Shown here in pieces: positions 7,808 to 40,378 of a stretch of 64,000 nt of DNA (its first letter is position 1; each line of letters starts with the position of its first letter). Under the pieces are notes generated by a model, which was given only the letters and a program-made list of their open reading frames with translations, searched no databases and was not told the DNA's origin. The position numbers and the translations under genes were made by a program. Source of the stretch: Hyphomicrobiaceae bacterium (GTDB taxonomy: Bacteria; Pseudomonadota; Alphaproteobacteria; Rhizobiales; Xanthobacteraceae); contig JAJPJB010000064.1 in the NCBI GenBank assembly GCA_021324465.1, forward strand, positions 123,563 through 187,562, written 5' to 3'.

Positions 7808-7812
7808 AAATT

Positions 7813-7880
7813 CGTCACGGCCGGGCTTGTCCCGGCCATCCACGTCTTTAATGTCCTCGCACGAAGACGTGGGTGGCCGC
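7813..7880. repeat. Palindromic intergenic repeat (Rhizobiales-type 'GGCCGGGCTTGTCCCGGCCATCCACGTC' element)
   Basis: Inverted arms GGCCATCCACGTCTT / AAGACGTGGGTGGCC (14/15 match); related core at 10338-10424. Confidence 0.65.
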
Positions 7881-7958
7881 AATGCAGGTGAGCGGAGCGA
7901 CGCCGTTCGTCGAACGGCTACGCGCAGGCATGATACGAATGGAACATGGAGTTTTCCC

Positions 7959-9140: not shown

Positions 9141-9163
9141 CTCCACCGCGGCGTATGGACCGT

Positions 9164-9250
9164 CACCCTGAGATGCGAGCGCGGCGGCCCTCGAAGGGCG
9201 CCGGACCGGGCCGTGCATCCTTCCAGAGCCGCTTTGCGGCCACCCCGGAA
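9164..9250. repeat. REP-like palindromic intergenic repeat
   Basis: CACCCTGAGATGCGAGC...CCCTCGAAGGGCGCCGG...GGGCCGTGCATCCTTCCAGAGCCGCTTTGCGGCCACCCC, resembling 'CACCCTGAGGTGCGAGC...CTCGAAGG' repeats familiar from Bradyrhizobium-type genomes. Confidence 0.5.
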
Positions 9251-9259
9251 CGACGGGCA

Positions 9260-10318: not shown

Positions 10319-10337
10319 CGACCTCGTTCTCCCAGCC

Positions 10338-10424
10338 CGTCATGGCCGGACTCGTCCTCGCCGTCCACGTCTCACGCTTGCCCCGGCAAAACGTGGATGC
10401 CGGCACAGAAGGCCGGGCATGACC
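10338..10424. repeat. Palindromic intergenic repeat, same family as 7813-7880
   Basis: GTCATGGCCGG...CCGTCCACGT...AACGTGGATGCCGG...CCGGGCATGAC nested inverted arms. Confidence 0.6.
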
Positions 10425-10437
10425 ATTTGATTTTCAC

Positions 10438-17232: not shown

Positions 17233-18666
17233 TCATGCCTTGCGGCGGAGGTCCTTGACGCGTTGCGCCTTGAACTCGGTTTTGGGCAGCGTGCCCGGCG
17301 CCAGCACGTCCGCCGTAGCCCGCACTTCGCAGCGTGCGCGAATTTCATCTTCAAGCCGTCGCCGCAGATCGGCGCCGCTTGTTGCATGATCGGCATGCTC
17401 GCAACGCACCGTCATGACGTCGAGACCGCCGTCGTCGCTCGACAATACGATCTCGAACTCATCGCCCGTCCCCGGCAGCGCGCGCACCGCCTCCTCGATC
17501 TGAACCGGGAACATCTTGATGCCGCGCAGATTGATCAGATCATCGGCACGGCCGGCAAAGGAGCCGACCGCGCGCACATGCGTGCGGCCGCAGGGGCAGC
17601 GCTCGGTCGAAAAGGTCGCGTAGTCGCCGACCAGGAAGCGCAATTGCGGCGAGCTCTCCGTATTCAAATTGGTGCAGACCGTCAGGCCGCGCTCGCCCGG
17701 CGGCAGCGCGCGGCGGCTTTCCGGATCGACGAGCTCCTAGATCTGAACGTCCTCCATCAGATGTGTCGCGGCGGGCGAGGTGCCAGGTTGCTGCGCCGGG
17801 CAGGAATAGCCGCCGACATGCGGCGAGGCTTCGGTGCAGCCATAAAATTCGACGACGCGCGCTCTCCAGAGCTCCTCAATGCGCCGGCGCGTCGATTCGA
17901 TCGCCAGCGCCGGCTCGCCCGCCACGAACAGCGTGTGCACGCTGGTGGCCGCCGGATCGTGTCCCATTGCCTGCATCAGCCGGCCGAGATGGAGCGCATA
18001 GGACGGCGTGCACAGCAGAATTGTCGGCTTGAATCGCAGAATGACATTGGCGCGCGCCTTGGCATCCATGCCGCCGCCCGGAATCGTCGGCAGCGCCATC
18101 TTCTCCAGCGCATATTGCACGCCCCAGGCCCAGACATGGGGCCCGTAGCCGGTCATCATGAAAACGACTTCGCCGGGCCGAAAGCCCATCGCAAGCAAAG
18201 CGCGCGCATTGGCCCATGCCCAGAACTCGCGGTCGATATGCGTGTAGCGAAACACCCGCGGCACGCCGGTCGAGCCGGACGACGAAAACATCATCCAGCC
18301 GCGCTGTGCCCAGATCTCGTCGGTTACTGTGGTGTAGGTGCCGTAGGGCGGATGCTCGGCGGCGTCAGCCATCATCTCTGCCTTGTCGACCACCGGCCAT
18401 TTGTGGAGATCGTCGACGCCGCGGATGTCGCTCGGCAGAAGGCCGAGGCGTTCGAAGCGACGACGATAGAACGGACTGTTTTCGTAAACAAAAGGCACCG
18501 CCGCCGCGAGCTTTTCGTTCTGGATCGCGGTTAGCTCATCGCGCGAGGCGGTATCGAGCGATGGCGACCATATGTCGGGGGTCGCGGCGCGATTCGGATC
18601 GCGCCGGAATTTTTCTATGGTTGCGAGCCAAACCTGCCGGCTCTTCTCCGCACGCGCGTTGTCCAT
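17233..18666 (-). pseudogene. PaaK-like phenylacetate-CoA ligase family protein interrupted by one in-frame TAG (17737-17739)
   Basis: N-terminal part 17737..18666 (MMFSSSGSTGVPRVFRYTHIDREFWAWANARALLAMGFRPGEV ... EDVQI*), same frame continues ELVDPESRRALPPGERGLTVCTNLNTESSPQLRFLVGDYATF...FAGRADDLINLRGIKMFPVQIEEAV down to 17233. Confidence 0.85.
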
Positions 18667-18687: not shown

Positions 18688-19791
18688 TTAGGATGTGCCC
18701 CAAACCATTGCAGCGACCTCGACCGCGCGCTTCAGCTTCGCCTCTTGATCGGTCTCGCTGACCGGATTGCCGGCGACGGTAGAGGCAAAGCCGCATTGCG
18801 GCCCGATCGCGAGCCGGTCGAGATCGACATAGCGCGCGGCGGCCTCGACGCCGCGCCGGAGCGCATCGACGGATTCCAGGGTCGGCGTCTTGCTGCTGAT
18901 TAGGCCGAGCACCACGCCTTTGTCCTTCGGCACGAAGCGCAGCGGAGCAAAATCACCCGCACGTTCGGTATCGTATTCGAGCAAAAAGTGCGTGGCCTTT
19001 ACATCGGCGAAGAAGCGCTCGGCGACCGATTCGTAGCCGCCTTCGGATAAATAATGGCCTTTGAAATTGCCGCGGCAGACGTGGACGCCGAGCGCCATGC
19101 CGTGCGGACAATGCGCCGCCGCGCGGTTGATTGCATCGACATAGATGTCGACCAGGACGTCGGGGTCTTGACCTTCTGATTTTGCGAAGGCGCGCAATTT
19201 CGGGTCGCACAGCATCGCAATCGCCACCTCATCGAACTGCACATAGCGGCAGCCGGCAGCGCAGAGATCGGCGAGCTCATCCTGATAGATTGCGCAGAGA
19301 TCGGCGAAGAACGTGACGAGATCGCTGTAGACCTTCGGATCGGCGAAATTGCGCCCGGCATAGAAATGCATCGTCGAGGGCGCCGGCAGCGTGATCTTGG
19401 GTGCGACCTGCGCGGTGTCACGCAAGAATGCGAATTCGTCGCACGCAAGCGCGCGCGCGCGCCGGATCTTTCCCGCCGCATAGGGCGTCGTAAAACTCAT
19501 CTCATGCCCGCGCTCGTCGCGAAATTTGTAGGCGGCCGGCCGGATTTCAAAGCCTTCGGTGCGTTCGACGAAACGGCCCCAATACGAGGCACGACGAAAC
19601 TCGCCGTCGGTGACGACCTTCAGCCCGACATCTTCCTGCATGCGCACGATGGCGCGGATGCTCTCGTCCTGAATGCGCTCGAAAGAGTGCGCGTCCAGCT
19701 CGCCGGCCTGAAAGCGCTTGAACGCCTGGCGCAGCTCGGGGGGGCGCAACAGGCTGCCGACGTGATCGGCCCGGAACGGCGGACGGCGCAT
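18688..19791 (-). CDS. MetE C-terminal-like (cobalamin-independent methionine synthase family / UROD-MetE superfamily) protein
   Basis: MRRPPFRADHVGSLLRPPELRQAFKRF, FDEVAIAML, GVHVCRGNFKGHY (HxC), IGPQCGFAST (second Cys). Confidence 0.88.
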   Translation of the reverse strand: MRRPPFRADHVGSLLRPPELRQAFKRFQAGELDAHSFERIQDESIRAIVRMQEDVGLKVVTDGEFRRASYWGRFVERTEGFEIRPAAYKFRDERGHEMSFTTPYAAGKIRRARALACDEFAFLRDTAQVAPKITLPAPSTMHFYAGRNFADPKVYSDLVTFFADLCAIYQDELADLCAAGCRYVQFDEVAIAMLCDPKLRAFAKSEGQDPDVLVDIYVDAINRAAAHCPHGMALGVHVCRGNFKGHYLSEGGYESVAERFFADVKATHFLLEYDTERAGDFAPLRFVPKDKGVVLGLISSKTPTLESVDALRRGVEAAARYVDLDRLAIGPQCGFASTVAGNPVSETDQEAKLKRAVEVAAMVWGTS

Positions 19792-19885: not shown

Positions 19886-20515
19886 ATGCGCAAACAGCAG
19901 AGAAAAACCGGGCATCCGCGGCGGCGCAGCGCGGCGATCTTGGATGCTGCCGCCGAGGTCTTTGCCAGCCGCGGATTTCACGGCGCCTCGACGCAGGACA
20001 TCGCCGACGTGCTCGGGATCAGGCAGGCAAGCCTGTATTATTATTTTCCCTCCAAGGAAGTGGCGCTCGAAGAAGTCTGCCTGCGGGGTGTCGAAGGTTT
20101 TTTGGAAACTGCCATATCGATTGCGGCGGCGGCGGGCTCGGCACACGACAAGATCGCGCGCCTTATCGCGGCGCATCTTGCGCCGCTTCGCGATCGGCGG
20201 CCCTATGTGCGCACCTTTCTCAACGAACGGCAGCATCTGCCGACCGAAAGCCGCCGGCGCATCGGACGGCTGTCGCGCGCCTATGAGCGGCTCATCGAAG
20301 ACGTGCTGAAATCCGGCGTCCGCAGCGGCGAATTCCGCCATGATCTCGATTGCCGGCTCGCCGCATTGGGCCTTCTCGGCCTCGTCAATGCCGTGGCCGC
20401 TTGGCACGGCAAGGAGCCCAAGACCACAATCGATCGTATCGCATCGGAATATGCGCGCCTTTACCTCGGCGGCGTCGGCATCGCGCGAGCAACAGGCCAG
20501 CGCAAAAGGCGCTGA
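19886..20515 (+). CDS. TetR/AcrR family transcriptional regulator
   Basis: RRRSAAILDAAAEVFASRGFHGASTQDIADVLGIRQASLYYYFPSKEVALEEVC HTH signature. Confidence 0.93.
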   Translation: MRKQQRKTGHPRRRSAAILDAAAEVFASRGFHGASTQDIADVLGIRQASLYYYFPSKEVALEEVCLRGVEGFLETAISIAAAAGSAHDKIARLIAAHLAPLRDRRPYVRTFLNERQHLPTESRRRIGRLSRAYERLIEDVLKSGVRSGEFRHDLDCRLAALGLLGLVNAVAAWHGKEPKTTIDRIASEYARLYLGGVGIARATGQRKRR

Positions 20516-20518
20516 CCC

Positions 20519-21658
20519 TCACGTGAACCCTAACGCCTTGCTGGCCAGCGCGGCGCCTTCCACCATGGCGCGCAATTTTGCCCAGGCGATCTGCGGATGC
20601 GAGCGGCCGCCGAAGCCACAATCGGTGCCGGCGATGACATTCTCTCTGCCGACCAGACGCGCATAGCGCTGCAGGCGCTGCGACACAAGCTGCGGGTGCT
20701 CGACGACGTCGGTCGAATGCGTGACCACGCCGGGAATGAGAATCTTGCCGTCGGGGAGCTTTGTTTTCTCCCATACGGCATATTCGTGCTCGTGGCGGGC
20801 ATTCGCACCTTCGATCAGGAACGCCTGCGCCTTGACTTTCAGCACGATGTCGACAATGCGCTCGAACTCAAGATCGTACGCGTGCGGCCCGTGCCAGATG
20901 CCCCAGCACAGATGATAGCGCACTCGATCTTCCGGAATGTTGCGCAGCGCGTGATTGAGCGCCTCGATGCGCATCTCGCTGCGGGCGCGGAACGCCGGTA
21001 GCCCCATGTCCATGCCGATGCGATCCCACAGCGCCGGTAGCCAGGCATCGTCTACCTGCAGAATGAGACCCGCCGCGGCGATCGCCTCATATTCAACCCG
21101 CATCGCCTCGGCGATCGCGTAGACGTATTCCTCATCGCTCTTGTAATAGCGATTGCGGCGATAGACTTCGAGGCTCGCCGGCGCGGTCGAGGTCAGAAAG
21201 ACGTTCGCCGTTCCAGCGACCGCGATCGTAACATCGATTTCCTTTTTCAGCTCCGCCTGGCCGACATAAGTCACCGGGCCGGTACAGACCTGCACCGGGC
21301 GTTTCTTGGCGATCTGCGCACCCGGCGTGTAGAACAACGTGCCGCGCTCGGTGGCATATTTGTAGAAATCGGCGAACGCCTCGCGGTCCTTGCCCTGCTC
21401 GATCAGCGGCTTGCCTTCGGGCGTTTCGATGTCTGTGAAGCCGCCGAAGCGGTTTTGCATATAGCGCAGCCAGTCGCCGCCTTTGGCATATTCGCCTTCA
21501 TTGATCACATCGATGCCGATCTTGCGCTGATGCGCGACGATGGCGGCGACGTCGTCGCGCAGATGCGCTGCGTCGCCCGCGCCGACGCCTTTGTCGAGCG
21601 ACAGAAATGGCAGGCTGCCGACATGCGTCGTCAGAATTTTGGATGTGCTACGCTGCAT
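20519..21658 (-). CDS. MetE C-terminal-like (cobalamin-independent methionine synthase II family) protein
   Basis: ILTTHVGSLPF, VINEGEYAKGGDWLRYMQNRFGGF, QVDDAWLPALWD, YHLCWGIWHGPH (HxC), LIEGANARHEHE, AGTDCGFGGR (Cys). Confidence 0.9.
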   Translation of the reverse strand: MQRSTSKILTTHVGSLPFLSLDKGVGAGDAAHLRDDVAAIVAHQRKIGIDVINEGEYAKGGDWLRYMQNRFGGFTDIETPEGKPLIEQGKDREAFADFYKYATERGTLFYTPGAQIAKKRPVQVCTGPVTYVGQAELKKEIDVTIAVAGTANVFLTSTAPASLEVYRRNRYYKSDEEYVYAIAEAMRVEYEAIAAAGLILQVDDAWLPALWDRIGMDMGLPAFRARSEMRIEALNHALRNIPEDRVRYHLCWGIWHGPHAYDLEFERIVDIVLKVKAQAFLIEGANARHEHEYAVWEKTKLPDGKILIPGVVTHSTDVVEHPQLVSQRLQRYARLVGRENVIAGTDCGFGGRSHPQIAWAKLRAMVEGAALASKALGFT

Positions 21659-21752
21659 AAACTGGACTCGCCTCCGCGCTTCTTTGCCCGCGGAGGCGAT
21701 GATATAGCCGCGGCAAAGTCGGCCGCAACGCCGTGCCGCCGGGAGCAACGCC

Positions 21753-27256: not shown

Positions 27257-29365
27257 TTGAAGCCTCCCGGCAGTTCGCGTGTGACATCATCAGCCCCAGC
27301 CCGACTCGGCGTCGATATCGGCGGCACGTTCACCGATGTCGCACTGGAAAGCGGCGAGCGGCGCTTCACCGCCAAAGGCCTCACCACGCCCCGCGCTCCC
27401 GAGCAGGGGGTACTGGCGATCGTGCGGTCGGTGATCGCCGAAGCAGGCATAGCTCCCGGCGATGTGCAGCTCATCATTCACGGCACGACGCTCGCAACCA
27501 ACGCCCTGATAGAGCGCAAGGGCGCAAAGACCGCACTGCTGACGACTGAAGGCTTTCGCGATGTTATCGAGATCCGCCACGAAAACCGCTTCGAGCAATA
27601 CGACGTCAATATCGACCTGCCGCCGCCGCTCGTTCCGCGCCGTCTGCGCCTGCCGATCCGCGAACGCATCGATGCGCAAGGCAGAGTGCTGGTGCCGCTC
27701 GATGGCGACAGCGTGGCCCGCGCCGTCGAGACTCTCGTCGCGCAGAACGTCGAAGCCGTGGCGGTCGGCTTCTTGCACAGCTTCACCAATCCCGATCACG
27801 AACGTCGCGTCGGGGACGCGATCACGCGCCGGCTGCCCGGTGTGCCGGTAACGCTGTCTTCCGACGTTTCGCCGGAGATGCGCGAATACGAGCGGTTCTC
27901 GACGGCCTGCGCCAATGCCTATTTGCAGCCCTTGATGGGCAGCTATATCGGCAGGCTCGAGCGCGGCCTGACGCAAGCCGGCTTTCGCTGTCCCATGCTG
28001 CTGATGACCTCCGGCGGCGGCGTCACCGCAACCGACACGGCCGTTCGCTTTCCGGTGCGGCTCGTCGAGTCCGGTCCGGCCGGCGGCGCGATCTTCGCCG
28101 CTTGTATTGCCCGTCAACACGGGCTTGACGAGGTCGTGTCGTTCGACATGGGCGGCACCACGGCAAAAATCTGCTTTATTGACAAGGCGCGCGCCCAGAC
28201 CGCGCGTATGTTCGAGGTGGCGCGCATCTATCGCTTCATCAAGGGCTCGGGCCTGCCGCTGCGCATTCCGGTGATCGAAATGGTCGAGATCGGCGCCGGC
28301 GGCGGCTCCATTGCCACCGTCGACCCGCTCGGGCGCATTGCCGTCGGCCCGCACAGCGCGGGCTCCGAGCCCGGGCCAGTCTGCTACGGCCGCGGCGGCA
28401 GCGAACCGACCGTCACCGATGCCGATCTGGTGCTCGGGCGGATCGATCCGGCGACATTCTCAGGCGGCAAGATGCCGCTCAACAGCGGCAGCGCGACGCG
28501 CGCCATCGCCGAGCGGATCGGCGGCAAGCTCAACCTTGCCGTCGAACACGCGGCGCTGGGCATCAGCGAAGTGGTCGATGAGAATATGGCCAACGCGGCG
28601 CGCGTGCACGCCATCGAAAGCGGCAAGGACCTTCGGCCGCGCACGCTCATCGCCTTCGGCGGCGCCGCGCCGCTTCACGCCGCACGAGTCGCAGAAAAAC
28701 TTGGCATCCGACATGTTCTCGTTCCAGCCAACGCCGGCGTCGGCTCGGCCGTGGGTCTTTTGCGCGCGCCGGTCGCCTATGAAATCGTGCGCGGGCGGCT
28801 GATGCGGCTGTCCGGCTTCGATGCGGATGGCATCAACCATCTGCTTGCTGAAATGCGCGCAGAAGCCGAGGCCATCGTGCGTCGCGGCGCGCCTGGCGCT
28901 GTGCTGACCGAACGCCGATCGGCATTCATGCGCTATCGCCGCCAGGGCCACGAGATTGCGATCGAGCTTCCGGTGCGCGAGTTCACGAGCGCCGATCGAG
29001 CGGTATTCACGGCCTCATTTGAGGACGCGTATCGGCGGCTCTACAGCCGGCCCATCCCCGGCGTGGACATTGAGATTCTCAGCTGGGTGGTCACCGTCGC
29101 CGCGCCGCCGGAAGGCGAACTCGCGGCGCCGGGCAAAGTCAAAGCAAGCAAGCCCCCGCCGCGCGGGCGTCGTCCGGTGTTTGACCCGCAAAGCGGCGAA
29201 TTCATCGAGGTGCCGATTTATTGGCGACCCGACCTCGAGCCGGGCGACGCTATCGCGGGACCGGCTGTCATTGCCGAGAACGACACCTCCACAGTCGTCA
29301 GCCCGCTGTTTGATGCCCGCATCGACAGGTTCGGTTATATTGAGCTCAAGCGCCGCGAGGAGTGA
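27257..29365 (+). CDS. hyuA: Hydantoinase/oxoprolinase family protein (HyuA-type)
   Basis: RLGVDIGGTFTDVALE, HGTTLATNALIERKGAKTALLTTEGFRDVIEIRHENR, SFDMGGTTAKICFID, EIGAGGGSIA; TTG 27257 or GTG 27281 start. Confidence 0.94.
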   Translation: MKPPGSSRVTSSAPARLGVDIGGTFTDVALESGERRFTAKGLTTPRAPEQGVLAIVRSVIAEAGIAPGDVQLIIHGTTLATNALIERKGAKTALLTTEGFRDVIEIRHENRFEQYDVNIDLPPPLVPRRLRLPIRERIDAQGRVLVPLDGDSVARAVETLVAQNVEAVAVGFLHSFTNPDHERRVGDAITRRLPGVPVTLSSDVSPEMREYERFSTACANAYLQPLMGSYIGRLERGLTQAGFRCPMLLMTSGGGVTATDTAVRFPVRLVESGPAGGAIFAACIARQHGLDEVVSFDMGGTTAKICFIDKARAQTARMFEVARIYRFIKGSGLPLRIPVIEMVEIGAGGGSIATVDPLGRIAVGPHSAGSEPGPVCYGRGGSEPTVTDADLVLGRIDPATFSGGKMPLNSGSATRAIAERIGGKLNLAVEHAALGISEVVDENMANAARVHAIESGKDLRPRTLIAFGGAAPLHAARVAEKLGIRHVLVPANAGVGSAVGLLRAPVAYEIVRGRLMRLSGFDADGINHLLAEMRAEAEAIVRRGAPGAVLTERRSAFMRYRRQGHEIAIELPVREFTSADRAVFTASFEDAYRRLYSRPIPGVDIEILSWVVTVAAPPEGELAAPGKVKASKPPPRGRRPVFDPQSGEFIEVPIYWRPDLEPGDAIAGPAVIAENDTSTVVSPLFDARIDRFGYIELKRREE

Positions 29366-31110
29366 TAGCCGTGGTCGCACGCCCCAATGCTGCGCTCGCG
29401 CAGATCCATACGCAGATCATGTGGGATCGCCTGATCGCGGTGGTGGAAGAGCAGGCGCAAACCATGCTGCGCACGGCCTTCAGCACCTCGGTGCGGGAGG
29501 CCGGCGATCTTTCCGCGGGCGTATTTGATCGGCACGGCCGCATGCTGGCGCAGGCAGTCACCGGCACTCCCGGCCATGTCAATTCGATGGCGAATGCCGT
29601 CAAATATTTTCTCGATGTCTTTCCGCTCGCCGGCATGAAACCCGGCGACCATTACATCACCAACGATCCCTGGCTGACCTCGGGCCATCTGCACGACATC
29701 ACGGTCGTGACGCCGAGCTTTTACCGGGGCGAAGCGGTCGGCCTGTTCGCCAACACGATCCATGTCGTGGATATCGGCGGGCTCGGCATGGGACCCGACG
29801 GGCGGCAGGTCTTCGAAGAAGGGCTTTCCATTCCGATCATGCCGCTCGCCCGCCAGGGCCGGATGAACGACGATCTGCTGCGTCTTGTGCGCGCCAATGT
29901 CCGCGAACCTTTGCAGGTCGAAGGCGATATTTACGCCTGCGCCGCCTGCAACGACGAAGGCAGCCGGCGCCTCGCCGAAATGATGGATGAATTCGAGATC
30001 AACAATCTCGATCGGCTGGGCGATACGATTCTTGACGCCTCGCGCGCGGCGACGCTGAGCCGCATCCGCGCGCTGCCCAAGGGCACTTATCGCAACAGCA
30101 TGACCATGGACGGCTACGACAAGCCGCTGACGCTCAGCGCCGCTTTGACGATCGCCGACGACGGCATTCATATCGATTTTGCAGGCACCTCGCCGGCGTC
30201 GGCCTATGGCATCAATGTCGTCATGAATTATTGCCTGGCCTACACCGCATTCGGCGTGAAATGCCTGGTGGCGCCCGAGGTGCCCAACAATGCCGGCTCG
30301 CTCGGACCGATCACCGTGAGCGCGCCGGAAGGCTGTGTGCTCAATGTCAAGCGGCCCTGGCCGGTGGCGGCGCGGCACACCGTCGGGCAAATGCTGCCTG
30401 ACGTCGTGTTCGGATGTCTGCACCAGGTCATCGGCGGCGGCGTGCCGGCCGAAGGCGCCTCATCGCTTTGGAATCCACAGATCTTCGGCGGCGGCTCGCT
30501 GGTCGACGAGATTGAAGACGGCACCGATGCCACCACGCTGCCGGAATTCTCGACCGTTATCTTTCACTGCGGCGGCGCCGGTGCGCGGCCTGAGAAGGAC
30601 GGGCTGAGCGCGACAGCGTTCCCGTCCGGCGTGCGCACGATCCCGGTTGAAGCGACCGAAAGCATCGCGCCAGTGATTTTCCACCGCCGCGAATTCCGCG
30701 AGAGTTCGGGCGGCGCCGGCAAATTTCGCGGCGGGCTCGGCCAGGTGATCGAGCTCGGGGGTGCCGGCGCGACGCCTATCGCGCTGCTCTGCAACTTCGA
30801 ACGCGTGCAAAATCCTGCGCGCGGCCGCGACGGCGGCCATGCCGGCGCGCCGGGAAGGGTGACCTTGCGCTCCGGCCGTCCCATCCGCCCCAAAGGACGC
30901 CAGACCGTGCCGCCGCGCGATGCGATCCGCCTGCAACTGCCGGGCGGCGGCGGTTTTGGCGAGCCGCGGACGCGCGATCCGCTGAAGGTGCGAGAGGACG
31001 TTCTCGACGGCCTGATCACTGCGGAGGAGGCGCGCCGCGTTTACGGCGTGGCCATCGATACGCGCGGCGAGATCGATCTTGCCGAGACCGAGCGCATCAG
31101 ACGGGCTTAG
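29362..31110 (+). CDS. hyuB: Hydantoinase B/oxoprolinase family protein (HyuB-type)
   Basis: GTGA overlap with hyuA; QIMWDRLIAVVEEQAQTMLRTAFSTSVREAGDLSAGVFDRHGRMLAQAVTGTPGHVNSMA, PLPGGGGFGEP-type C-terminus. Confidence 0.94.
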   Translation: MIAVVARPNAALAQIHTQIMWDRLIAVVEEQAQTMLRTAFSTSVREAGDLSAGVFDRHGRMLAQAVTGTPGHVNSMANAVKYFLDVFPLAGMKPGDHYITNDPWLTSGHLHDITVVTPSFYRGEAVGLFANTIHVVDIGGLGMGPDGRQVFEEGLSIPIMPLARQGRMNDDLLRLVRANVREPLQVEGDIYACAACNDEGSRRLAEMMDEFEINNLDRLGDTILDASRAATLSRIRALPKGTYRNSMTMDGYDKPLTLSAALTIADDGIHIDFAGTSPASAYGINVVMNYCLAYTAFGVKCLVAPEVPNNAGSLGPITVSAPEGCVLNVKRPWPVAARHTVGQMLPDVVFGCLHQVIGGGVPAEGASSLWNPQIFGGGSLVDEIEDGTDATTLPEFSTVIFHCGGAGARPEKDGLSATAFPSGVRTIPVEATESIAPVIFHRREFRESSGGAGKFRGGLGQVIELGGAGATPIALLCNFERVQNPARGRDGGHAGAPGRVTLRSGRPIRPKGRQTVPPRDAIRLQLPGGGGFGEPRTRDPLKVREDVLDGLITAEEARRVYGVAIDTRGEIDLAETERIRRA

Positions 31111-31122: not shown

Positions 31123-32784
31123 TCAAACCGACATTGCGAGTGGCGCGCTGACGCGTGCGCCGGCCTGCGCATCTTGCAAAATCATATCTGAGCCCTTTTC
31201 GCCGATCATCACGGCGGCCGCATTGGTATTGCCGGACACGACCGTCGGCATGATCGAGGCATCGACCACGCGCAGGCCTTCCAAGCCGCGCACGCGCAGC
31301 CGTTCGTCCACCACCGCGGACGGATCGGAGCCCATGCGGCAGGTCGAGGTCGGATGATAGACAGTGGTCGCGGTCGCGCGCGCGAAGGCCAGCAGGTCGG
31401 CATCGCTGACGCAGGCCTCGCCCGGCGCCAACTCCTCCGCAATGTATTTGCGCATCACCGGCTGGCTCATGATACGGCGCAGCGCCTTAAGTCCGTCGAC
31501 GACGGTGTCACGATCGAGCTGCGCCGTAAGGTAATGCGGCTGGATGGCCGGCGGTATCATCGGATCGCTCGATTTGATATGCACAAAGCCGCGGCTCTCC
31601 GGCCGCAATTGACAGATCGACGCCATGAAACCGGAGAACGGGTGCAGCGCCGCGCCGGCGGCGTCGGCGCTGAAGATCAGAAAGTGAATCTGCACATCCG
31701 GCGTCGCCGCTTCCGGCCGCGTGCGAATGAAAGCTGCGGCATAGCCGGCGCCGATGGTAAGCAGACCTTTGCGCGACAGCAGGTAGCGCAGCCCGGCACG
31801 GTAACGATGCCGCCAATGATTGATCACGTCGTTCATGGTGATCGGCTGGTTGCAGCGATACTGGATGCGGATCTGCAAATGATCCTGCAGATCGGCGCCA
31901 ACACCCGGCATCTCAGCGATCACCGCAATGCCAAGGTCGCGCAGGAGTTTTGCCGGCCCGACGCCGGACAGCTGCAGGAGCTGCGGCGAGTTGAATGCGC
32001 CGCCCGACAGGATCACCTCGCCGTCGGCATAAGCGGTGTGTGCCGTCCCGCCCCGGCGAAATTCGACGCCGATCGCGCGCCGCCCGGAAAACAGCACGCG
32101 CGTAGTCAGCGCGTCGCAGAGGACCTTCAGATTGGGCCGCCTGCGTGCCGGCCGCAGATAGCCAACCGCGGTCGACCAGCGCCGCCCGTTCTTTGTCGTA
32201 AGCTGAAAGTAGCCGGCGCCCTCCTGGGTCGGCCCGTTGAAGTCGTCGTTGCGCGGATAGCCGGCCTGGAGCGCCGCCTCGATGAAAGCGTCGCACAGCG
32301 GATGCGGCTCACAGACATCGGAGACCGCGAGCGGTCCGCCGACGCCGTGCAGATCATCGGCGCCGCGCTGTTGATCTTCGGCGCGGCGGAAATACGGCAG
32401 GACGTCCTTGAAAGCCCAGCCGGTATTGCCAAGCTGGCGCCAGTGATCATAGTCCTCGTGCTGGCCACGGATGTAGAGCAGCCCGTTGATCGAGCTCGAT
32501 CCGCCCAGAACCTTGCCGCGCGGCTGGATGATCCGCCGATTGTTCAGCTCGGGCTCGGGCTCGGTCTTGTACAGCCAGTTGACCTTGGCATTGTCGAACA
32601 GCTTGCCGTAACCGAGCGGAATGTGAATCCAGATGTGGCGGTCGTGCCCGCCGGCCTCGAGCAGCAGCACGCGGTATTTGCCTGATGCGGTCAGCCGATT
32701 GGCCAACACGCATCCGGCCGAACCCGCGCCGACAATGATGTAATCGAAACGCGGTGAATTGTCTTCTGTGGTTTTTTCTTGCAT
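31123..32784 (-). CDS. GMC family oxidoreductase (choline dehydrogenase-like)
   Basis: FDYIIVGAGSAGCVLANRLTASGKYRVLLLEAGG, PRGKVLGGSSSINGLLYIRGQ, YHPTSTCRMG, VVDASIMPTVVSGNTNAAAVMIGEKGSDMI. Confidence 0.95.
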   Translation of the reverse strand: MQEKTTEDNSPRFDYIIVGAGSAGCVLANRLTASGKYRVLLLEAGGHDRHIWIHIPLGYGKLFDNAKVNWLYKTEPEPELNNRRIIQPRGKVLGGSSSINGLLYIRGQHEDYDHWRQLGNTGWAFKDVLPYFRRAEDQQRGADDLHGVGGPLAVSDVCEPHPLCDAFIEAALQAGYPRNDDFNGPTQEGAGYFQLTTKNGRRWSTAVGYLRPARRRPNLKVLCDALTTRVLFSGRRAIGVEFRRGGTAHTAYADGEVILSGGAFNSPQLLQLSGVGPAKLLRDLGIAVIAEMPGVGADLQDHLQIRIQYRCNQPITMNDVINHWRHRYRAGLRYLLSRKGLLTIGAGYAAAFIRTRPEAATPDVQIHFLIFSADAAGAALHPFSGFMASICQLRPESRGFVHIKSSDPMIPPAIQPHYLTAQLDRDTVVDGLKALRRIMSQPVMRKYIAEELAPGEACVSDADLLAFARATATTVYHPTSTCRMGSDPSAVVDERLRVRGLEGLRVVDASIMPTVVSGNTNAAAVMIGEKGSDMILQDAQAGARVSAPLAMSV

Positions 32785-32922
32785 GGCCCGGGCGCTCTCC
32801 CTTGCGCCAAGAATAGCGCGAAGGGCGGCGGCGATACAGACTATCCCGGTACGGCGAGGTGCCGAGAGGCAGACCTCCAAGACCTGACGCCAGACAATCC
32901 GCTCTCAAACTCCGATCGCCCT

Positions 32923-33837
32923 CTACATTCTCTCGGCACTCGCAGCCGCGCGGATCGCCGCCACGAATCGCTCGACCAGCGGCGACCGTACCGCGCGCCG
33001 TTGCCGCAGGCAGATCTCGCGCGTGAAATGCTGTCTGCGCAGCGGCACGCCGGCGAGGCGGCGCGCCTTAAGCTCGAGCTGCACCAGCTTCCTCGACAAA
33101 ATCGTCACGCAATCGGACTGCATGATGATCGATTTCAGCGCAGTGATGGAATTGGTGATGATGGCGCCGGACGGCCACGGCTGATTTTCCGCGGAGAATA
33201 GCAGCTCGACCTGGCGCGACATTGTCGTGTGCGGGCTCGGCATGACCCATTGCTCATCGCGCAGATGGGCGATCAAAAGTGACTTGCGGCACGCCAGCCG
33301 ATGGCGCGGGCGCATGGCCACGACAAACACGTCGCGTGCCAACGTCTCGCAAATCACATCGGAACCATCGGCGAGCAACCCCGCCGCATTGACCACCAGA
33401 TCGATCTCGCCGCTGCGCAACCCGGCGATCAGTTCGTCGTCGGCGCGCTCCTCGATGGTGATGCCGATATTTGGCGTTTCCCGCTTCAGCCGCGCCACCG
33501 CGATCGGCACGATATCGATGCAAGCAACCGGAGAGACACCGATGATCAGCGAGCCTTCGAGCCCGCGTTTCTTTGCCTCGAGTTCGTCGGCGGCGCGCGA
33601 CAGGACCGAATCGATGGCGGCGGCGTGACCGGCGAGGAGCTCGCCGAATTCGGTCAGGCTCGCGCCGTTTCGCGTTCGCTCGAACACGCGCACGCCGAGC
33701 ATTTTTTCCAGCACAGCCATGCTGTTGGACAGCGCCGGCTGCGTGACGCCCAGAGCCGCCGCCGCACGGGTAAAGGAACCGCGGTCGGCAATGCGCAACA
33801 GTTCGATCAACCGCTTGGGATCGATGCCGGAGGTCAT
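32923..33837 (-). CDS. LysR family transcriptional regulator
   Basis: RLIELLRIADRGSFTRAAAALGVTQPALSNSMAVLEKMLGVRVFERTRNGASLTEFGELL. Confidence 0.94.
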   Translation of the reverse strand: MTSGIDPKRLIELLRIADRGSFTRAAAALGVTQPALSNSMAVLEKMLGVRVFERTRNGASLTEFGELLAGHAAAIDSVLSRAADELEAKKRGLEGSLIIGVSPVACIDIVPIAVARLKRETPNIGITIEERADDELIAGLRSGEIDLVVNAAGLLADGSDVICETLARDVFVVAMRPRHRLACRKSLLIAHLRDEQWVMPSPHTTMSRQVELLFSAENQPWPSGAIITNSITALKSIIMQSDCVTILSRKLVQLELKARRLAGVPLRRQHFTREICLRQRRAVRSPLVERFVAAIRAAASAERM

Positions 33838-33979
33838 AACCGTAACTTATGGTAAACGGGGATATTCTTATTGGACATTATGGGTCACGCGCTGTCAACT
33901 ACCGGCAAAAATCTGGCGCGACGGCACCCGCAGCCGAGCCTGCGTGCTGTGCCCGGCGCGCCTTGCGGGAGGAAGCGCG

Positions 33980-35005
33980 ATGAACGTTCACCTCGTCGGC
34001 AGCATTGGCCTCGACACGGTCGAGGACGTCTTTCGCACCGTCGGCAAGGAGCTCGGCCCGCATCTAAAGCGCGTCCCGGACGGTGAAGTCGGCGGGCGGA
34101 AGCTTTGGATCAGCTGGCAATATCCGCTGTTGCGCGCCGCCACCTTTCTGCGCCCCGATCCGTCGGGCAAGGTGCGGCCCACCAATCGGTTTGCGCTGCT
34201 TACCCTGGCCGACGGCGTTGCACCTGCCGACGTGCATTTCGGCGAGCTCGGCTATGCGCGCGAGGCGCGCGCCTCCTATCTGGATTTTCTGACCGCACGC
34301 GACAACGGCGAACTGCCGAGAGACATCCGCTTCCAGGTCTGCCTGCCGACGCCGTTTGCGGTGGTCAGTTCCGTGGTCGTCCCGCAGGCGCTGCCCGCCG
34401 TCGAAGCGGCATACGAGAAAGCGATGATTGCCGAGGTTGCCGCGCTGTGCCGCCATATCCCCCATCGCGATCTGTGCATCCAATGGGACCTGTGCAACGA
34501 GATGGTGATCTGGGACGGTCAGAAGACCGAAGCGGTGCCGTTTCCCGATGAGCCGCGCGACGAGATCATCGCCCGCATGCAGCGGCTCTGCGCTGCCATT
34601 CCCGACGACGTTGAGCTCGGCTTGCATCTTTGCTACGGCGATTTTGGCGCAAAGCATTTCGTCGAACCGAAGGACGCCGCAGCGATGGTCGATTTCGCCA
34701 ACACGCTTGCGCAAGCGATAGCGCACAAGCTTGCTTATATTCACATGCCGGTGCCGATCGAGCGCAGCGACGATGCGTTCCACCGGCCGCTGCGTGATCT
34801 CAAGCTGCCTGCCGGCACGGCGCTTTTTCTCGGCGTGGTGCATGCCAAGGATGGCACCTCAGGCACCAAAGCGCGCATCGCGGCCGCGCGCCGCTACGCG
34901 CCGGATTTCGGCATCGCCACCGAATGCGGCATGGCGCGGGCACGCTCCGAACAAACGGTGCGTCAGCTTCTCAGAATTCACGCCGAATGCTGTGCAAACA
35001 GCTAA
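33980..35005 (+). CDS. MetE C-terminal-like/UROD-MetE superfamily protein, paralog 1
   Basis: MNVHLVGSIGLDTVEDVFRTVGKELGPHLKRVPDGEVGGRKLWISWQ; HLCYGDFG (34625-34633 encodes HLC), ATECGMARA (Cys 34925-34927). Confidence 0.82.
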   Translation: MNVHLVGSIGLDTVEDVFRTVGKELGPHLKRVPDGEVGGRKLWISWQYPLLRAATFLRPDPSGKVRPTNRFALLTLADGVAPADVHFGELGYAREARASYLDFLTARDNGELPRDIRFQVCLPTPFAVVSSVVVPQALPAVEAAYEKAMIAEVAALCRHIPHRDLCIQWDLCNEMVIWDGQKTEAVPFPDEPRDEIIARMQRLCAAIPDDVELGLHLCYGDFGAKHFVEPKDAAAMVDFANTLAQAIAHKLAYIHMPVPIERSDDAFHRPLRDLKLPAGTALFLGVVHAKDGTSGTKARIAAARRYAPDFGIATECGMARARSEQTVRQLLRIHAECCANS

Positions 35006-35043
35006 GTCGGCGTCGAGGCAAGAGCCGGGAGAGAAAAGAGAGA

Positions 35044-36099
35044 ATGCCACGCGACATCCATCTGGTCGGCAGTGTGCCCATGGCCAGTGCGCGGGAGGTC
35101 TTTGAAAAGGTCAGCGCCGCGCTCGGCACGCGCATCAAGCGGCTCCCCGACGGAGAGACCGGCGAGCGCGGCGACTGGATCAGCTGGCTCGAGCCGATCT
35201 TTTCGGAAAATCCGGCTTTTCAAAAATCAGGCGAATTTTTCCGCGTGCATGCCACCGGCACGGGGCGCGAACGCTACACGCTCAGACCCGGCGTAAGGCC
35301 GCAGGATGTACACTTCGGCAATCTTTTCTATGCCGATATTGCCGCCCAATCCTATGTCCAGTTCAAGCGGCTCAAGGATGCGGGCAGGATTCCCGCCGGC
35401 ACAAAATTCCAGGTCGATCTGGTACCGGCGCATTCGGTGATTTGGCTGTTTGTGGTCGACGCGCTGCATGCGCCGCTTGATCCGATCTATAACGAGGCGC
35501 TCAAGCGCGAGATCGACAAGATCGCCGCCGCCATACCGCACGAGGAATTGGCCATCCAGTTCGACGTGGCATCTGCGGTGTTCGCGCGGCTCGAGCGCAA
35601 TGAAGCGTCGAGCTACGGCCGCACCAAAGCGGAAATGCAGGATACTTTCGCCAATATTCTCGTGGCGCTCGGCAATCGCGTGCCCGTCGATATCGATCTG
35701 CTCTATCACCTCTGCTACGGTGATTCCGGACATAAGCATGTCGTCGAGCCGACCGACATGGGTGACATGGTGGAATTCGCCAATCGGATGTCACGCCGAA
35801 TCATGCGCCCAATCCAGCTCATTCACATGCCGGTGCCGCGCAACCGCTCCGACGATGCTTATTTTGCGCCACTGCAGCGCCTGCAGTTACGGCCGGAAAC
35901 GGAACTGTGCCTTGGCCTCGTCCACTACACCGACGGCGTTGAGGGCGCCAGGCGGCGGCTGGAGACCGCCAAGCGCCATCTCGCCCAGCCTCATGCCTCA
36001 CGTTTCTCGATCGCCACCGAATGCGGCTTCGGACGGCGCGATCCGGCCACGATTCCCGAATTGCTGCGCATTCATGCTACGGTGGCTGACGCGGCTTAG
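35044..36099 (+). CDS. MetE C-terminal-like/UROD-MetE superfamily protein, paralog 2
   Basis: MPRDIHLVGSVPMASAREVFEKVSAALGTRIKRLPDGETGERGDWISWL; YHLCYGDSGHKH (HLC 35707-35715), ATECGFGRRDP (Cys 36022-36024). Confidence 0.82.
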   Translation: MPRDIHLVGSVPMASAREVFEKVSAALGTRIKRLPDGETGERGDWISWLEPIFSENPAFQKSGEFFRVHATGTGRERYTLRPGVRPQDVHFGNLFYADIAAQSYVQFKRLKDAGRIPAGTKFQVDLVPAHSVIWLFVVDALHAPLDPIYNEALKREIDKIAAAIPHEELAIQFDVASAVFARLERNEASSYGRTKAEMQDTFANILVALGNRVPVDIDLLYHLCYGDSGHKHVVEPTDMGDMVEFANRMSRRIMRPIQLIHMPVPRNRSDDAYFAPLQRLQLRPETELCLGLVHYTDGVEGARRRLETAKRHLAQPHASRFSIATECGFGRRDPATIPELLRIHATVADAA

Positions 36100-36136
36100 C
36101 GATGCTTGCCACAAGAAACTTAAGGGGAACACGCTC

Positions 36137-37156
36137 ATGTCTACCATAAAGCTTGCGATCGGAATTGGGATCGTTGGTGTCGTTGCGCTCGCGCTTGCTG
36201 GCGGCCTTTGCGCCGCGCAGGCCGATCCGATCAAGATCCGGGGCTCTTACGTTGTGCCGGTGGCGAACTGGGCCTCGCTGTTGGCGGAGAAGAAAGATCT
36301 CACCAAGCACTGGGGCACATCTTACGACTTTGAGGCTGTGCGCTATCAGGGCACGCCGCCGATGATCACCGCGATGGCTGTCAATGAGCTCGAGATTGGC
36401 GATCTTGCTTATTCGACGCTCGGCTTGGCAGTGCAGAATGCCGGCCTCGACGACCTGCAAGTCATTGCCGACGAATTCCAGGACGGCGCGCCCGGCTATT
36501 ATTCCGATGAATTTTTTGTGCGCAAAGACTCGGACATCAACAAGATCGAGGATCTCAAGGGCAAGGTCATCGCCACCAACGCCACCGGCAGCGGCGTCGA
36601 TATCGCCATGAAGGCCACGTTGCACAAGCACGGGCTCGACGATAAACGCGACTACACTACGATCGAAGGCCCCTTTCCGGCCATGGCGGCGATGCTTGCG
36701 GAAAAGAAAGTCGACCTGATCCCGGGCGTGTTGCCGTTCTCGCTCAATCCGACCTTGCGCCAAAACAGCAACGTGCTGTTCACGCAGAAGGAAGGCATCG
36801 GCCGCACCCAGATGATCATCTGGACGGCACGCAAATCCTTCATCGACAAGAACCGCGCCGCGATGGTCGACTTCATGGAGGACGTGCTGCGCATCGAGCG
36901 CTGGTATCTCGACCCGAAGAATCACGACGAGGTGGCGGCGATCGCCTCGAAAATGCTCAAGGTGCCGCCGGAGCGGCTAGGCTGGTTGTTCACCAAGCAG
37001 GATTACTATCGCGATCCTGACGGCAAGCCCGATATGAACGCGCTGAAGAGCAACGTCGACATCACCCGGGAGCTCGGCTTCTTCAGCGGCACGATCGATC
37101 TTTCCAAGCACACCGATCTGAGCCTGGTCGAAGAAGCCGCCAAGCGGCTGAAGTAG
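36137..37156 (+). CDS. ABC-type (NMT1/SsuA-like) solute-binding protein
   Basis: Signal peptide MSTIKLAIGIGIVGVVALALAGGLCAAQADP; IRGSYVVPVANWASLLAEKKDLTKHWG, DLKGKVIATNATGSGVDIAMKATLHKHGLD. Confidence 0.82.
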   Translation: MSTIKLAIGIGIVGVVALALAGGLCAAQADPIKIRGSYVVPVANWASLLAEKKDLTKHWGTSYDFEAVRYQGTPPMITAMAVNELEIGDLAYSTLGLAVQNAGLDDLQVIADEFQDGAPGYYSDEFFVRKDSDINKIEDLKGKVIATNATGSGVDIAMKATLHKHGLDDKRDYTTIEGPFPAMAAMLAEKKVDLIPGVLPFSLNPTLRQNSNVLFTQKEGIGRTQMIIWTARKSFIDKNRAAMVDFMEDVLRIERWYLDPKNHDEVAAIASKMLKVPPERLGWLFTKQDYYRDPDGKPDMNALKSNVDITRELGFFSGTIDLSKHTDLSLVEEAAKRLK

Positions 37157-37252
37157 CGCGAACCGCGCCGCATTTTCTTCGCGACCCGGAAGAAGTATAA
37201 GCTTCGTCCTGTCCCGCTGCGCCCGGTCCCGCGGGGGGAGGAGGAAAAAGTC

Positions 37253-39586
37253 GTGCAGAAATTCGGTGTCGGTCAGCCCGTTCCGCGGCTTGAAGATCCA
37301 CGTTTCATCACCGGCCGCGGCCGTTATGTCGACGACGTCGATCTGCCGCATCAGTGCTACGGCGTGCTGGTCATGTCGCCGCATGCGCATGCGCGCATCA
37401 GGCGCATCGACACCGGCAAGGCCAAGGCGGCCGACGGCGTGCTCGCGGTGCTCACCGGCGCTGATGTGGCGGCTGACGGATTGGGGCCGCTCGCGCCGCC
37501 CATGCCGCAAGACATGGGCGGACCGAAAGGCTTTCGCACCTTGCGTCCAATCCTCGAAGCCGAAAAGGTCCGCGCGGTGGGCGAGCGCGTCGCCTTTGTT
37601 GTTGCCGAGACGGCCTACCAGGCACGCAATGCCGCCGAGCTGATCGAGATCGACTACGAGCCGCTGCCGGCGGTCGTCAATGTCGAGGACGCAGTGAAGC
37701 CCGGCGCCCCCGTCATCTGGGACGAGGCGCCGAACAACATTTCGTTCACGCTGATGATGGGCAACAAGGAGGCAACCGATGCCGCCTTTGCCAAGGCCAG
37801 GCACGTCATCACTCTCAAGCTCAACAATTCGCGCATCACCGCCAATGCGATCGAGCCGCGCGCCGCGATCGGCCAATATCATCCCGAGAGCGACAGCTAC
37901 ACGCTCTACTCGACCTCGCAGAACCCGCACGGCACGCGCACTGCGGTCGCCGGGCAGGTGTTGAAGGTGGCCGAGACCAAATTGCGCGTCATCTCGCCGG
38001 ATGTCGGCGGCGGCTTCGGCATGAAATTCGGCGGCTATCCGGAAGACGCGCTGGTGGTCTGGGCGTCGCGCCGCGTCGGTGGTCGGCCGGTGAAATGGGT
38101 GTCGACGCGCTCGGAGGCGCTGTTGTCGGACGCGCAAGGCCGCGACCAGGTCGTCACCGGCGAGCTTGCGCTCGATGAGCACGGCAAAATCCTGGGACTT
38201 CGCGTCACCGCGCTGCACGCGATGGGCTCGCATGTGTTCGGTGCCGCGATGGTGGTGCCGCTGTTCGCGGCGCGGCTGGCGCCGGGAGTCTATCAGATTC
38301 CGGCGGTGCATGCGGTGGCGCATGCCGTGCTCACCAATACCATTCCGACGGCGCCCTATCGCGGCGCCGGCCGGCCGGAAGCGGCCTTTCTGATCGAGCA
38401 ATTGCTTGATCGCGCGGCGCGAGTGGTCGGCGTCGATGTGATCGAAATCAGGCGGCGCAATTTCATTCCGCCCTCCGCCATGCCGCACAAGATCCAAACC
38501 GGCATCACTTATGACAGCGGCGACTTCGCCCATGTGATGGACGAGTGCCTAAAGCTCTTCGACTGGAACGGCTTTGCCAAGCGCGCTGCCGAATCAAAGA
38601 AGAACGGCAAGCTGCGCGGCCGCGGCATCGGCTATTTTCTGGAAGAAGCCGCGGTGTTCAACGACCGCATGGTGATCCGCTTCGATCCGAGCGGCATGCT
38701 CACCATTCTCGCCGGTACCCATTCGCACGGCCAAGGGCACGAGACGGTTTACGCACAGATGGCCTCCGAATGGCTCGGCGTGCCGTTCGAGAATGTCCGC
38801 TTTGTGCAGGGCGACACCGATGCCGTGCCGTTTGGGCGCGGCACCTACGGCTCGCGCAGCATGCAGATCGGCGGCAATGCGCTCAAGCGCGCCGCCGACA
38901 GCATCATCGAGAAGGCAAAGCCGATGGCGGCGATAATGCTGGAAGCCGCCGCCGGCGACATCGAATTCAAGGACGGCGCCTTCCGCATCGTGGGCACCGA
39001 CCGCACCCTCGGGCTTACCGACGTCGCCAAGGCGTTCTACCGCCCGGCGCTGCTGCCGCCGCAGTTCGATGTCGGGCTGGAAGCCTCAGGGACCTTCGCC
39101 GCCGAGCCGCCGAATTATCCCAACGGCTGCCATCTTTGCGAAGTGGAGGTCGATCCGGAGACCGGAGAGGTGACGCTCGCCCGCTATGCCGCGGTCGACG
39201 ACGTCGGCAAGGTCATGAACAAGCTGCTCTGCGAGGGCCAGATTCACGGCGGCGTGGCGCAAGGCGCGGGCCAGGCGCTGATGGAAGCCGTCGTGTTCGA
39301 CCGTGAAGGCCAGCTTGTGACCGGAAGCCTTCAGGACTACGCGATGCCGCGGGCGCAGGACCTTCCGGAATTCGTCTCCGAGATCGCCGAAATCCCGAGC
39401 ACGACCAATCCGCTCGGCGTCAAGGGCGCCGGCGAAGCCGGCGCCACCGGCGCGCCGCCCGCGATCATCGGCGCCATCCTCGATGCGCTCAAACCGCTCG
39501 GTATCGAGCATCTCGACATGCCGGCAACGCCAAGCCGCGTCTGGGCGGCGATCAACGCGCACAGAGCAAAGGCGGCGGCGGAGTGA
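37253..39586 (+). CDS. Xanthine dehydrogenase/CoxL-family molybdopterin-binding (large) subunit
   Basis: GQPVPRLEDPRFITGRGRYVDDV, PDVGGGFGMKFGGYPEDALVVWASRR, TAPYRGAGRPEAAFLIEQLLD, THSHGQGHETVYAQMASEWLG, GVKGAGEAGATGAPPAIIGAILDAL; GTG start. Confidence 0.95.
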   Translation: MQKFGVGQPVPRLEDPRFITGRGRYVDDVDLPHQCYGVLVMSPHAHARIRRIDTGKAKAADGVLAVLTGADVAADGLGPLAPPMPQDMGGPKGFRTLRPILEAEKVRAVGERVAFVVAETAYQARNAAELIEIDYEPLPAVVNVEDAVKPGAPVIWDEAPNNISFTLMMGNKEATDAAFAKARHVITLKLNNSRITANAIEPRAAIGQYHPESDSYTLYSTSQNPHGTRTAVAGQVLKVAETKLRVISPDVGGGFGMKFGGYPEDALVVWASRRVGGRPVKWVSTRSEALLSDAQGRDQVVTGELALDEHGKILGLRVTALHAMGSHVFGAAMVVPLFAARLAPGVYQIPAVHAVAHAVLTNTIPTAPYRGAGRPEAAFLIEQLLDRAARVVGVDVIEIRRRNFIPPSAMPHKIQTGITYDSGDFAHVMDECLKLFDWNGFAKRAAESKKNGKLRGRGIGYFLEEAAVFNDRMVIRFDPSGMLTILAGTHSHGQGHETVYAQMASEWLGVPFENVRFVQGDTDAVPFGRGTYGSRSMQIGGNALKRAADSIIEKAKPMAAIMLEAAAGDIEFKDGAFRIVGTDRTLGLTDVAKAFYRPALLPPQFDVGLEASGTFAAEPPNYPNGCHLCEVEVDPETGEVTLARYAAVDDVGKVMNKLLCEGQIHGGVAQGAGQALMEAVVFDREGQLVTGSLQDYAMPRAQDLPEFVSEIAEIPSTTNPLGVKGAGEAGATGAPPAIIGAILDALKPLGIEHLDMPATPSRVWAAINAHRAKAAAE

Positions 39587-39589
39587 TCA

Positions 39590-40378
39590 GTGAGCGAAGC
39601 AGCCAATCTTTTTGCCGATGGCAAGGCCTATGAGCGGCTGATGGGCCGCTGGAGCCAGCTCGCCGGCGCGCAATTTCTCGACTGGCTCGACGCCCCGGCC
39701 AATCTCAAATGGATCGATGTCGGCTGCGGCAACGGCGCTTTCACCGAAGTGCTGATCGCACGCTGCGCGCCCCTATCCGTGATGGGCGTCGATCCGTCGG
39801 AGGGCCAGATCGCATTTGCGCGCACGCGACCGGGCGCAAAACTCGCGGAGTTTCGCGTCTGTGACGCCCAGGCGCTGCCGTTTCCCGACAAGAGCTTTGA
39901 TGCGGCCTCGATGGCGCTGGCGATCTCGTTCCTGCCTGACCCAAATAAGGCCGTCTCTGAAATGGCGCGGGTGGTGCGCCCCGGGGGCATCGTCGCCACT
40001 TACATGTGGGACTTTCTCCAGGGCGGCGGCACGCCGCTCACGCCATTGGGCGTCGCCATACAATCGCTCGGCCTGCCGCCGCTTGCGCGTCCAAACCCGG
40101 AGGCGTCGCGACGCGAAACATTGCAGACGATATGGGAGCAGGCGGGTCTTCGCTCCGTCGCGACCAGGGCGATCCATATTCGCGTTTCGTTTTCCGATTT
40201 TGACGATTACTGGGCTTCCAATAGCGTGCCGGTGGGTCCGTCGGGCAAGGCGCTTGCCGAAATGTCGCCACCGCAGCGCGAAGCGGTGAAAGCGCGGCTG
40301 CGCGAGCAACTGCCGATCGCCGCGGATGGCACGATTTCTTACGATGCTGTTGCCAATGCGGTGAAGGGGGTCGCGTAG
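39590..40378 (+). CDS. Class I SAM-dependent methyltransferase
   Basis: LKWIDVGCGNGAFTEVLIARCAPLSVMGVDPSEGQIAFAR, DAQALPFPDKSFDAASMALAISFLPDPNKAVSEMARVVRPGG; GTG start. Confidence 0.9.
   Translation: MSEAANLFADGKAYERLMGRWSQLAGAQFLDWLDAPANLKWIDVGCGNGAFTEVLIARCAPLSVMGVDPSEGQIAFARTRPGAKLAEFRVCDAQALPFPDKSFDAASMALAISFLPDPNKAVSEMARVVRPGGIVATYMWDFLQGGGTPLTPLGVAIQSLGLPPLARPNPEASRRETLQTIWEQAGLRSVATRAIHIRVSFSDFDDYWASNSVPVGPSGKALAEMSPPQREAVKARLREQLPIAADGTISYDAVANAVKGVA

Follow-up and report, generated by a model that had tools for sequence, protein, structure and literature searches.

What do five closely spaced genes on one strand have in common, if two MetE-like proteins, a solute-binding protein (SBP), the large subunit of a Mo-hydroxylase and a SAM methyltransferase are encoded side by side? 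The preliminary description had read them as one co-transcribed operon for a route of import, thiol/alkyl transfer and Mo-hydroxylation. The explanation that we favour, with a probability of roughly 0.55 for the explanation as a whole, is that the five genes represent two juxtaposed units and not one conserved pathway. Unit A is composed of the LysR, MetE-like 1, MetE-like 2 and SBP genes, and unit B of the Mo-hydroxylase and methyltransferase genes; the former would be a transferable import-and-transfer module, and the latter an old possession of the genus with its own promoter-like element. Coordinates, unless another locus is named, refer to the window, i.e., the whole stretch of 64,000 nucleotides that was analysed; the source genome and its relatives are fragmented draft assemblies. 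The features of the locus are the following:

About 32786-37160: putative inserted segment of ~4.4 kb corresponding to unit A, delimited by blastn against the same-genus loci L139 and L140
32923-33837, minus strand: divergent LysR gene of unit A (LysR_substrate and HTH_1 domains)
33838-33912: LysR/MetE-like intergenic, operator-like region, conserved with loci L051 and L052
33980-35005, plus strand: MetE-like protein 1 gene (ATG start, 341 aa, open reading frame)
35044-36099, plus strand: MetE-like protein 2 gene (ATG start, 351 aa, open reading frame)
36137-37156, plus strand: SBP gene (ATG start, 339 aa, open reading frame), a type II SBP of the NMT1/SsuA/TauA class according to Pfam NMT1, fold and the SBP tree
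37171-37200, plus strand: promoter-like element CATTTTCTTCG-N13-GTATAA, 30 bp, upstream of the Mo-hydroxylase gene (consensus CATTYTCWTMG-N13-GTATAA)
37253-39586, plus strand: Mo-hydroxylase large-subunit gene (GTG start, 777 aa, open reading frame), an XDH/CoxL-type molybdopterin large subunit, not CO dehydrogenase (MoCoBD_1/2, Ald_Xan_dh_C)
39590-40378, plus strand: class I SAM methyltransferase gene of unit B (GTG start, 262 aa, open reading frame; Methyltransf_11)

The positions of the five plus-strand genes, the gaps between them (38, 37, 96 and 3 bp, in order) and the divergent LysR gene are all as first described. The look of co-transcription holds for genes 1-3 and for genes 4 and 5, but it breaks down at the junction of genes 3 and 4, where the Mo-hydroxylase has a promoter-like element of its own. 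Zero occurrences of this element are expected by chance in the window, and it precedes the Mo-hydroxylase ortholog in at least seven relatives (L139, L140, L144, L145, L146, L147 and L158), the parts in L139 being TTCTCA and TATAAC with a spacing of 17 bp. Since the element is kept both in the window and in the relatives, unit B appears to have retained an ancestral promoter-like element after the SBP stop codon.

Orthologs of the Mo-hydroxylase (75-86% identity) occur in most same-genus genomes. In loci of the genus, the GMC oxidoreductase, Mo-hydroxylase and methyltransferase are found without the LysR-MetE1-MetE2-SBP block at that place. The order in G001 (L140), namely Mo-hydroxylase, GMC oxidoreductase, HydB and HydA, is that of the window minus LysR, the MetE-like pair and SBP; in G010 (L139), the methyltransferase is followed by the Mo-hydroxylase and, after 107 bp, by the GMC oxidoreductase. 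Downstream of the Mo-hydroxylase gene, the methyltransferase gene follows directly in G010 and after 1-1.3 kb in G004 and G007. In blastn comparisons with L139 and L140, homology to the window ends at 32753-32757 and picks up again at 37243-37252; the right border of the insertion would lie before 37171, because the promoter-like element belongs to the Mo-hydroxylase. The simplest reading of these alignments is that unit A was inserted between the divergent GMC oxidoreductase and unit B, repeated loss of unit A in the relatives being less parsimonious. As for transposon-type direct repeats, the borders offered only an unconvincing 9-bp match (TAGCGCGAA, 32814/37154). The GMC oxidoreductase is also adjoined by a hydantoinase/oxoprolinase-type pair, HydA/HydB (27257-31110), in an order conserved in L140.

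Taken as a test, co-occurrence in relatives dissolves the five-gene set and leaves a three-gene subset together. The tandem MetE-like pair was found in four other genomes: with 5-bp gaps in G005, G006 and G012, and with a 27-bp gap and in reversed order in the betaproteobacterium of L057. Orthologs of MetE-like protein 2 standing in tandem with protein 1 are 79-81% identical in G005 and G012 and 75% in G006. The pair of L057 is divergent from an SBP gene (67% identity to the window SBP), after which come an ABC ATPase and two permeases; L051 and L052 contain LysR, MetE-like 2, ABC genes and a nearby SBP (61-63% to the window SBP), and unit A recurs also in L048, L053 and L055. Among the MetE-like loci analysed from other genomes, not one encodes a window-type Mo-hydroxylase or methyltransferase. 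In the trees, the closest relationship of the window SBP is a sister grouping with the SBP of the L057 locus (SH-aLRT 98), apart from the other SBPs of the genus, and MetE-like protein 1 clades with the second MetE-like gene of L057 (SH-aLRT 99). The LysR divergent from MetE-like 2 is 54-56% identical to the window LysR in L051/L052 and 42% in L048. Aligned without gaps, 33838-33912 has 39 matching positions with L052 and 45 with L051, a level reached by 0 of 1000 shuffles, and this operator-like region is common to the Hyphomicrobiales loci (L051, L052) and the window.

Profile searches with MetE-like proteins 1 and 2, which share 41% identity, gave zero matches to Pfam or NCBIfam models. Likewise, none of 47 aligned members of the family, drawn from several phyla, matched PF01717 (0/47, even at E 0.1) or any other relevant Pfam model. 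The original assignment of both proteins to MetE is nevertheless right at the level of fold. The AlphaFold model of protein 2 (P0002), built from the 47-sequence alignment, had a mean pLDDT of 94.3, and its top 24 Foldseek matches in the PDB were MetE without exception, 1xpg among them (E=1.3e-9). The model matched 3rpd (MesD) over its full length (TM 0.67/0.69), and 1ypx likewise, at 11-15% identity to solved MetE structures; profile-profile comparison with PF01717 relatives gave a probability of 98.6% for the family.

The zinc ligands of MetE are H641, C643, E665 and C726, and its homocysteine residues S433, E484 and D599 (Price et al. 2021, PMC7857596). In P0002 numbering, H222, C224 and C327 correspond to His641, Cys643 and Cys726 (H-x-C...C) and are kept in every sequence compared; S10, E38 and D174 correspond, by alignment and not by superposition, to Ser433, Glu484 and Asp599 and are also kept in all. 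Glu665 is replaced, and its strand bears an invariant His261-x-Pro263; in MesB, Asp is the fourth zinc ligand in place of Glu665 (PMC7857596). The N-terminal folate-binding half of MetE is missing, each protein (341 and 351 aa) being a single barrel. His294 of P0002 presumably takes the place of MetE His707. Zinc-thiolate chemistry, in keeping with the thiol/alkyl transfer first proposed, is likely because of the predicted MetE fold and the kept residues; since the Glu665 ligand is replaced, we go only so far as to infer that zinc is bound.

The MetE-like tree has two old subfamilies, P0001-type and P0002-type, and the family extends over Pseudomonadota, Actinomycetota, Chloroflexota and Rokubacteriota, with up to eight matches in one relative. 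A search of the literature found no paper that describes it. Members of the MetE-like 2 subfamily also lie in a conserved, housekeeping-like stretch of Hyphomicrobiales (L047, L049, L050 and L072, around 10000-11030), together with an aminotransferase, a homoserine-dehydrogenase-like gene and glpX. Elsewhere, the family is coupled to SAM methyltransferases as well as to ABC import. Six genomes of Rokubacteria/Chloroflexota encode fusion proteins of about 650-690 aa that combine the MetE-like domain with a class I methyltransferase domain and that also retain the zinc-motif and homocysteine-site residues:

L066:774-2825, MetE-like::class I methyltransferase fusion
L069:9992-12022, MetE-like::class I methyltransferase fusion
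L070:1760-3802, MetE-like::class I methyltransferase fusion
L079:198-2282, MetE-like::class I methyltransferase fusion
L082:4121-6187, MetE-like::class I methyltransferase fusion
L093:10001-11956, MetE-like::class I methyltransferase fusion

In the Rokubacterium of L093, genes for a permease, an ATPase, a permease, an SBP and the fusion follow one another with overlaps of 4 bp or a gap of 1 bp, so that a complete ABC importer is linked to the fusion. Two genes from the fusion of L082, a homocysteine S-methyltransferase-MTHFR protein is encoded. The fusions and the L093 operon make the strongest case that SAM chemistry, import and transfer by the MetE-like domain may belong together in this family. 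We rejected orthology of the fused methyltransferase with gene 5 (best BLAST E=0.001); judging by sequence comparison, the window methyltransferase is of separate origin.

The SBP of the window matches Pfam NMT1 with E=1e-12 (48.9 bits against a gathering score of 20.5), and its predicted model (pLDDT 82) has a type II SBP fold nearest to TauA and SsuA at 17-19% identity. Its scores fall under the curated cut-offs for the SsuA family and TauA; a sulfonate-like ligand is hinted at by the modelled fold. No permease or ATPase lies next to the SBP gene in the source genome, in which one further locus is relevant:

L171 (G000:C19) 6901-9300, source genome: ABC ATPase and two permeases, with no SBP gene

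The ATPase of C19 is 77% identical to that of L057, one to three SBP genes are present in the orthologous loci of G004, G005, G007, G009 and G017, and just two SBPs of the window type (P0003-type) are present in the source genome. We infer that the C19 permease may serve the window SBP in trans. That the window SBP is the relocated SBP of the C19 transporter was considered and rejected: its place in the tree is with the L057 SBP, away from the C19-type SBPs of the genus.

Turning to unit B, the family labels first given to the molybdopterin large subunit and the SAM methyltransferase, as well as to the SBP, hold in Pfam/NCBIfam. The MoCoBD_1, MoCoBD_2 and a/b hammerhead domains are all present in the large subunit, which scores 562.9 bits against TIGR02416, below the cut-off of 991. 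AYxCSFR is the motif of aerobic CO dehydrogenase CoxL; the window protein reads PYRGAGR at that place. Neither CoxM (PF00941) nor CoxS (PF01799) is encoded within the window, and the large subunit had been correctly called an orphan. By motif, cut-off and missing subunits, gene 4 as CO dehydrogenase was rejected. Gene 5 is over the gathering score for Methyltransf_11/25 (88.9 vs 21.2 bits). The source genome has 16 matches to CoxL-type (L) subunits versus 7 to M-type (FAD) and 10 to S-type (Fe-S) subunits, many of the large subunits having no partner encoded alongside. Molybdopterin enzymes of the formate-dehydrogenase/DMSO-reductase type adjoin MetE-like genes in L023 (363-2489), L034 (2760-4856), L057 (12212-14329) and L071 (2834-4927); one conserved Mo-oxidoreductase partner was rejected, these enzymes being merely 24-26% identical between lineages.

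In tallies uncorrected for shared ancestry and with genes called by our own script, TctC (8), Rieske proteins (6; VanA_C in 2), LysR (5) and PF01717 (4) stood out among 116 immediate neighbours of MetE-like genes, and none of them appeared in the top 25 of the distal control (116 genes); NMT1 SBPs were not enriched (6 immediate vs 6 distal, same loci). Recurrent neighbours include LigXa_C- and VanA_C-type Rieske proteins and FAD ring hydroxylases, a mostly catabolic context. From 19 PF01717 matches, some of them split, the source genome contains about 15 genes of this family, including a run of three on contig C101. Two more stand-alone PF01717 MetE-family proteins are encoded in the window itself (18688-19791 and 20519-21748, both minus strand), near genes for a short AMP-binding protein (17737-18666) and a protein read as a TetR-like regulator (19886-20515).

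We propose that LysR would sense a small compound and activate the divergent MetE-like/SBP operon, while the SBP would capture the compound for delivery to an ABC permease, perhaps the one encoded on contig C19. By zinc-thiolate chemistry, the MetE-like proteins would then transfer methyl, or another small alkyl group, from the imported compound or a derivative to a thiol in the MetE homocysteine site; the product would be methionine or a similar thioether, made with neither folate nor cobalamin. We suppose that the group moved is methyl and that the solute is a small compound; the acceptor would most likely be homocysteine, given the kept homocysteine-site residues and the homocysteine S-methyltransferase-MTHFR protein near the L082 fusion. 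Of the route first outlined, import and MetE-like transfer are supported: the pair travels with this type of SBP (L057, SBP tree), and in L093 an importer is overlap-coupled to the fusion. Mo-hydroxylation as a step of it is not supported, since the Mo-hydroxylase and methyltransferase genes adjoin the same GMC oxidoreductase in relatives without unit A there and have their ancestral promoter-like element; the two enzymes probably carry out a separate step. It is tempting to go further and to suppose that aerobic bacteria widely possess an undescribed family of zinc enzymes that moves methyl directly from imported small molecules to a thiol, free of folate and cobalamin, with the fusion of some phyla as a one-protein methyl relay and the window pair as its two-subunit form. 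We offer this tentatively, with the odds against it.

A single five-gene pathway, leading an imported compound from the MetE-like pair to the Mo-hydroxylase and then to the methyltransferase, would agree with the shared strand, the short gaps and the SBP/Mo-hydroxylase junction, where a convincing terminator is absent and just a 5-bp stem of a type common in the region was found (37156-37168). The fusions and the L093 operon make a coupling of both activities possible, and molybdopterin enzymes, if of another class, lie beside MetE-like genes in four loci. However, relatives have unit B with its promoter-like element and no adjoining unit A, unit A is found elsewhere without unit B, and the methyltransferases of fusion and window are not closely related; we regard a single pathway as quite unlikely. 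Somewhat less improbable, though still unlikely, is that the MetE-like proteins are ordinary core (Mes) methionine synthases that make methionine with a general one-carbon donor, the SBP being incidental. They retain the zinc motif and the homocysteine-site residues and occur near the homocysteine S-methyltransferase-MTHFR protein (L082) and homoserine-dehydrogenase-like genes (L047/L049/L050/L072). However, methionine synthesis in the source genome is covered, because a full-length MetH is present; moreover, Glu665 is replaced, neighbours are mostly catabolic, one relative has as many as eight family matches, and no member matches PF01717, the catalytic-domain model of Price et al. (PMC7857596).

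Two further readings concern the chemistry of the barrel. As members of the same superfamily as epoxyalkane:coenzyme M transferase, the MetE-like proteins might join a thiol to the activated carbon of an epoxide or alkyl compound; the SBP fold being closest to the sulfonate binders TauA and SsuA, import of coenzyme M or another sulfonate thiol is conceivable in principle. Yet ComA (PF02679; coenzyme M synthesis) had no match in the source genome in a search whose controls matched, which makes a coenzyme M route unlikely; an alkene monooxygenase is absent from the annotated window genes, and the homocysteine-site residues are kept. We therefore consider this reading very unlikely. A UROD/MetE-like barrel without thiol transfer, acting on an imported aromatic acid as, e.g., a decarboxylase or a lyase, would suit the aromatic-catabolism neighbours (Rieske oxygenases, ring hydroxylases, amidohydrolases) and the weak match of the P0002 fold to UroD. 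However, that match is far worse than the one to MetE (E about 1e-4 vs 1e-9), and H-x-C...C is kept in all members compared, which leaves it the most improbable of these readings.

The locus draws attention to a family without a Pfam or NCBIfam model that resides in catabolic loci and whose MetE-type active site is largely intact apart from the loss of one zinc ligand. If these proteins do demethylate imported compounds, aerobic soil and marine bacteria could draw on methylated organic matter without folate or B12, and many "hypothetical" genes would become interpretable. The locus also counsels caution: one strand and tight spacing may reflect a recent insertion, and a shared pathway does not follow from them.

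Among known systems, the SBP has the fold and NMT1 match of SsuA/TauA/NMT1 proteins, but no adjoining permease or ATPase. The Mo-hydroxylase shares the MoCoBD domains and G-x-G-E motif of CoxL/XDH-type (form II-like) large subunits, but it lacks nearby CoxM/CoxS and the CO-dehydrogenase motif. The MetE-like proteins resemble MetE (PF01717) in the barrel and in the equivalents of Ser433/Glu484/Asp599 and His641/Cys643/Cys726, and differ from it in lacking the folate-binding half, a PF01717 match and the Glu665 ligand. Core methionine synthases (MesA-MesD, PMC7857596; core-MetE, PMC7005905) are likewise single domains of ~340 aa in which the folate domain is absent; however, in these named families Glu/Asp or one of the other listed ligand sets is retained, and the window pair has a catabolic SBP context. 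MesX (DUF1852), the partner of MesD, had no match in the source genome, nor in any control genome. Closest to the fusions, by description only, is the "MetE-fusion" of Rao et al. (2024), which, as presented in PMC12478193 and PMC11439496, carries a truncated MetE-like domain in a fusion and has widespread homologues.
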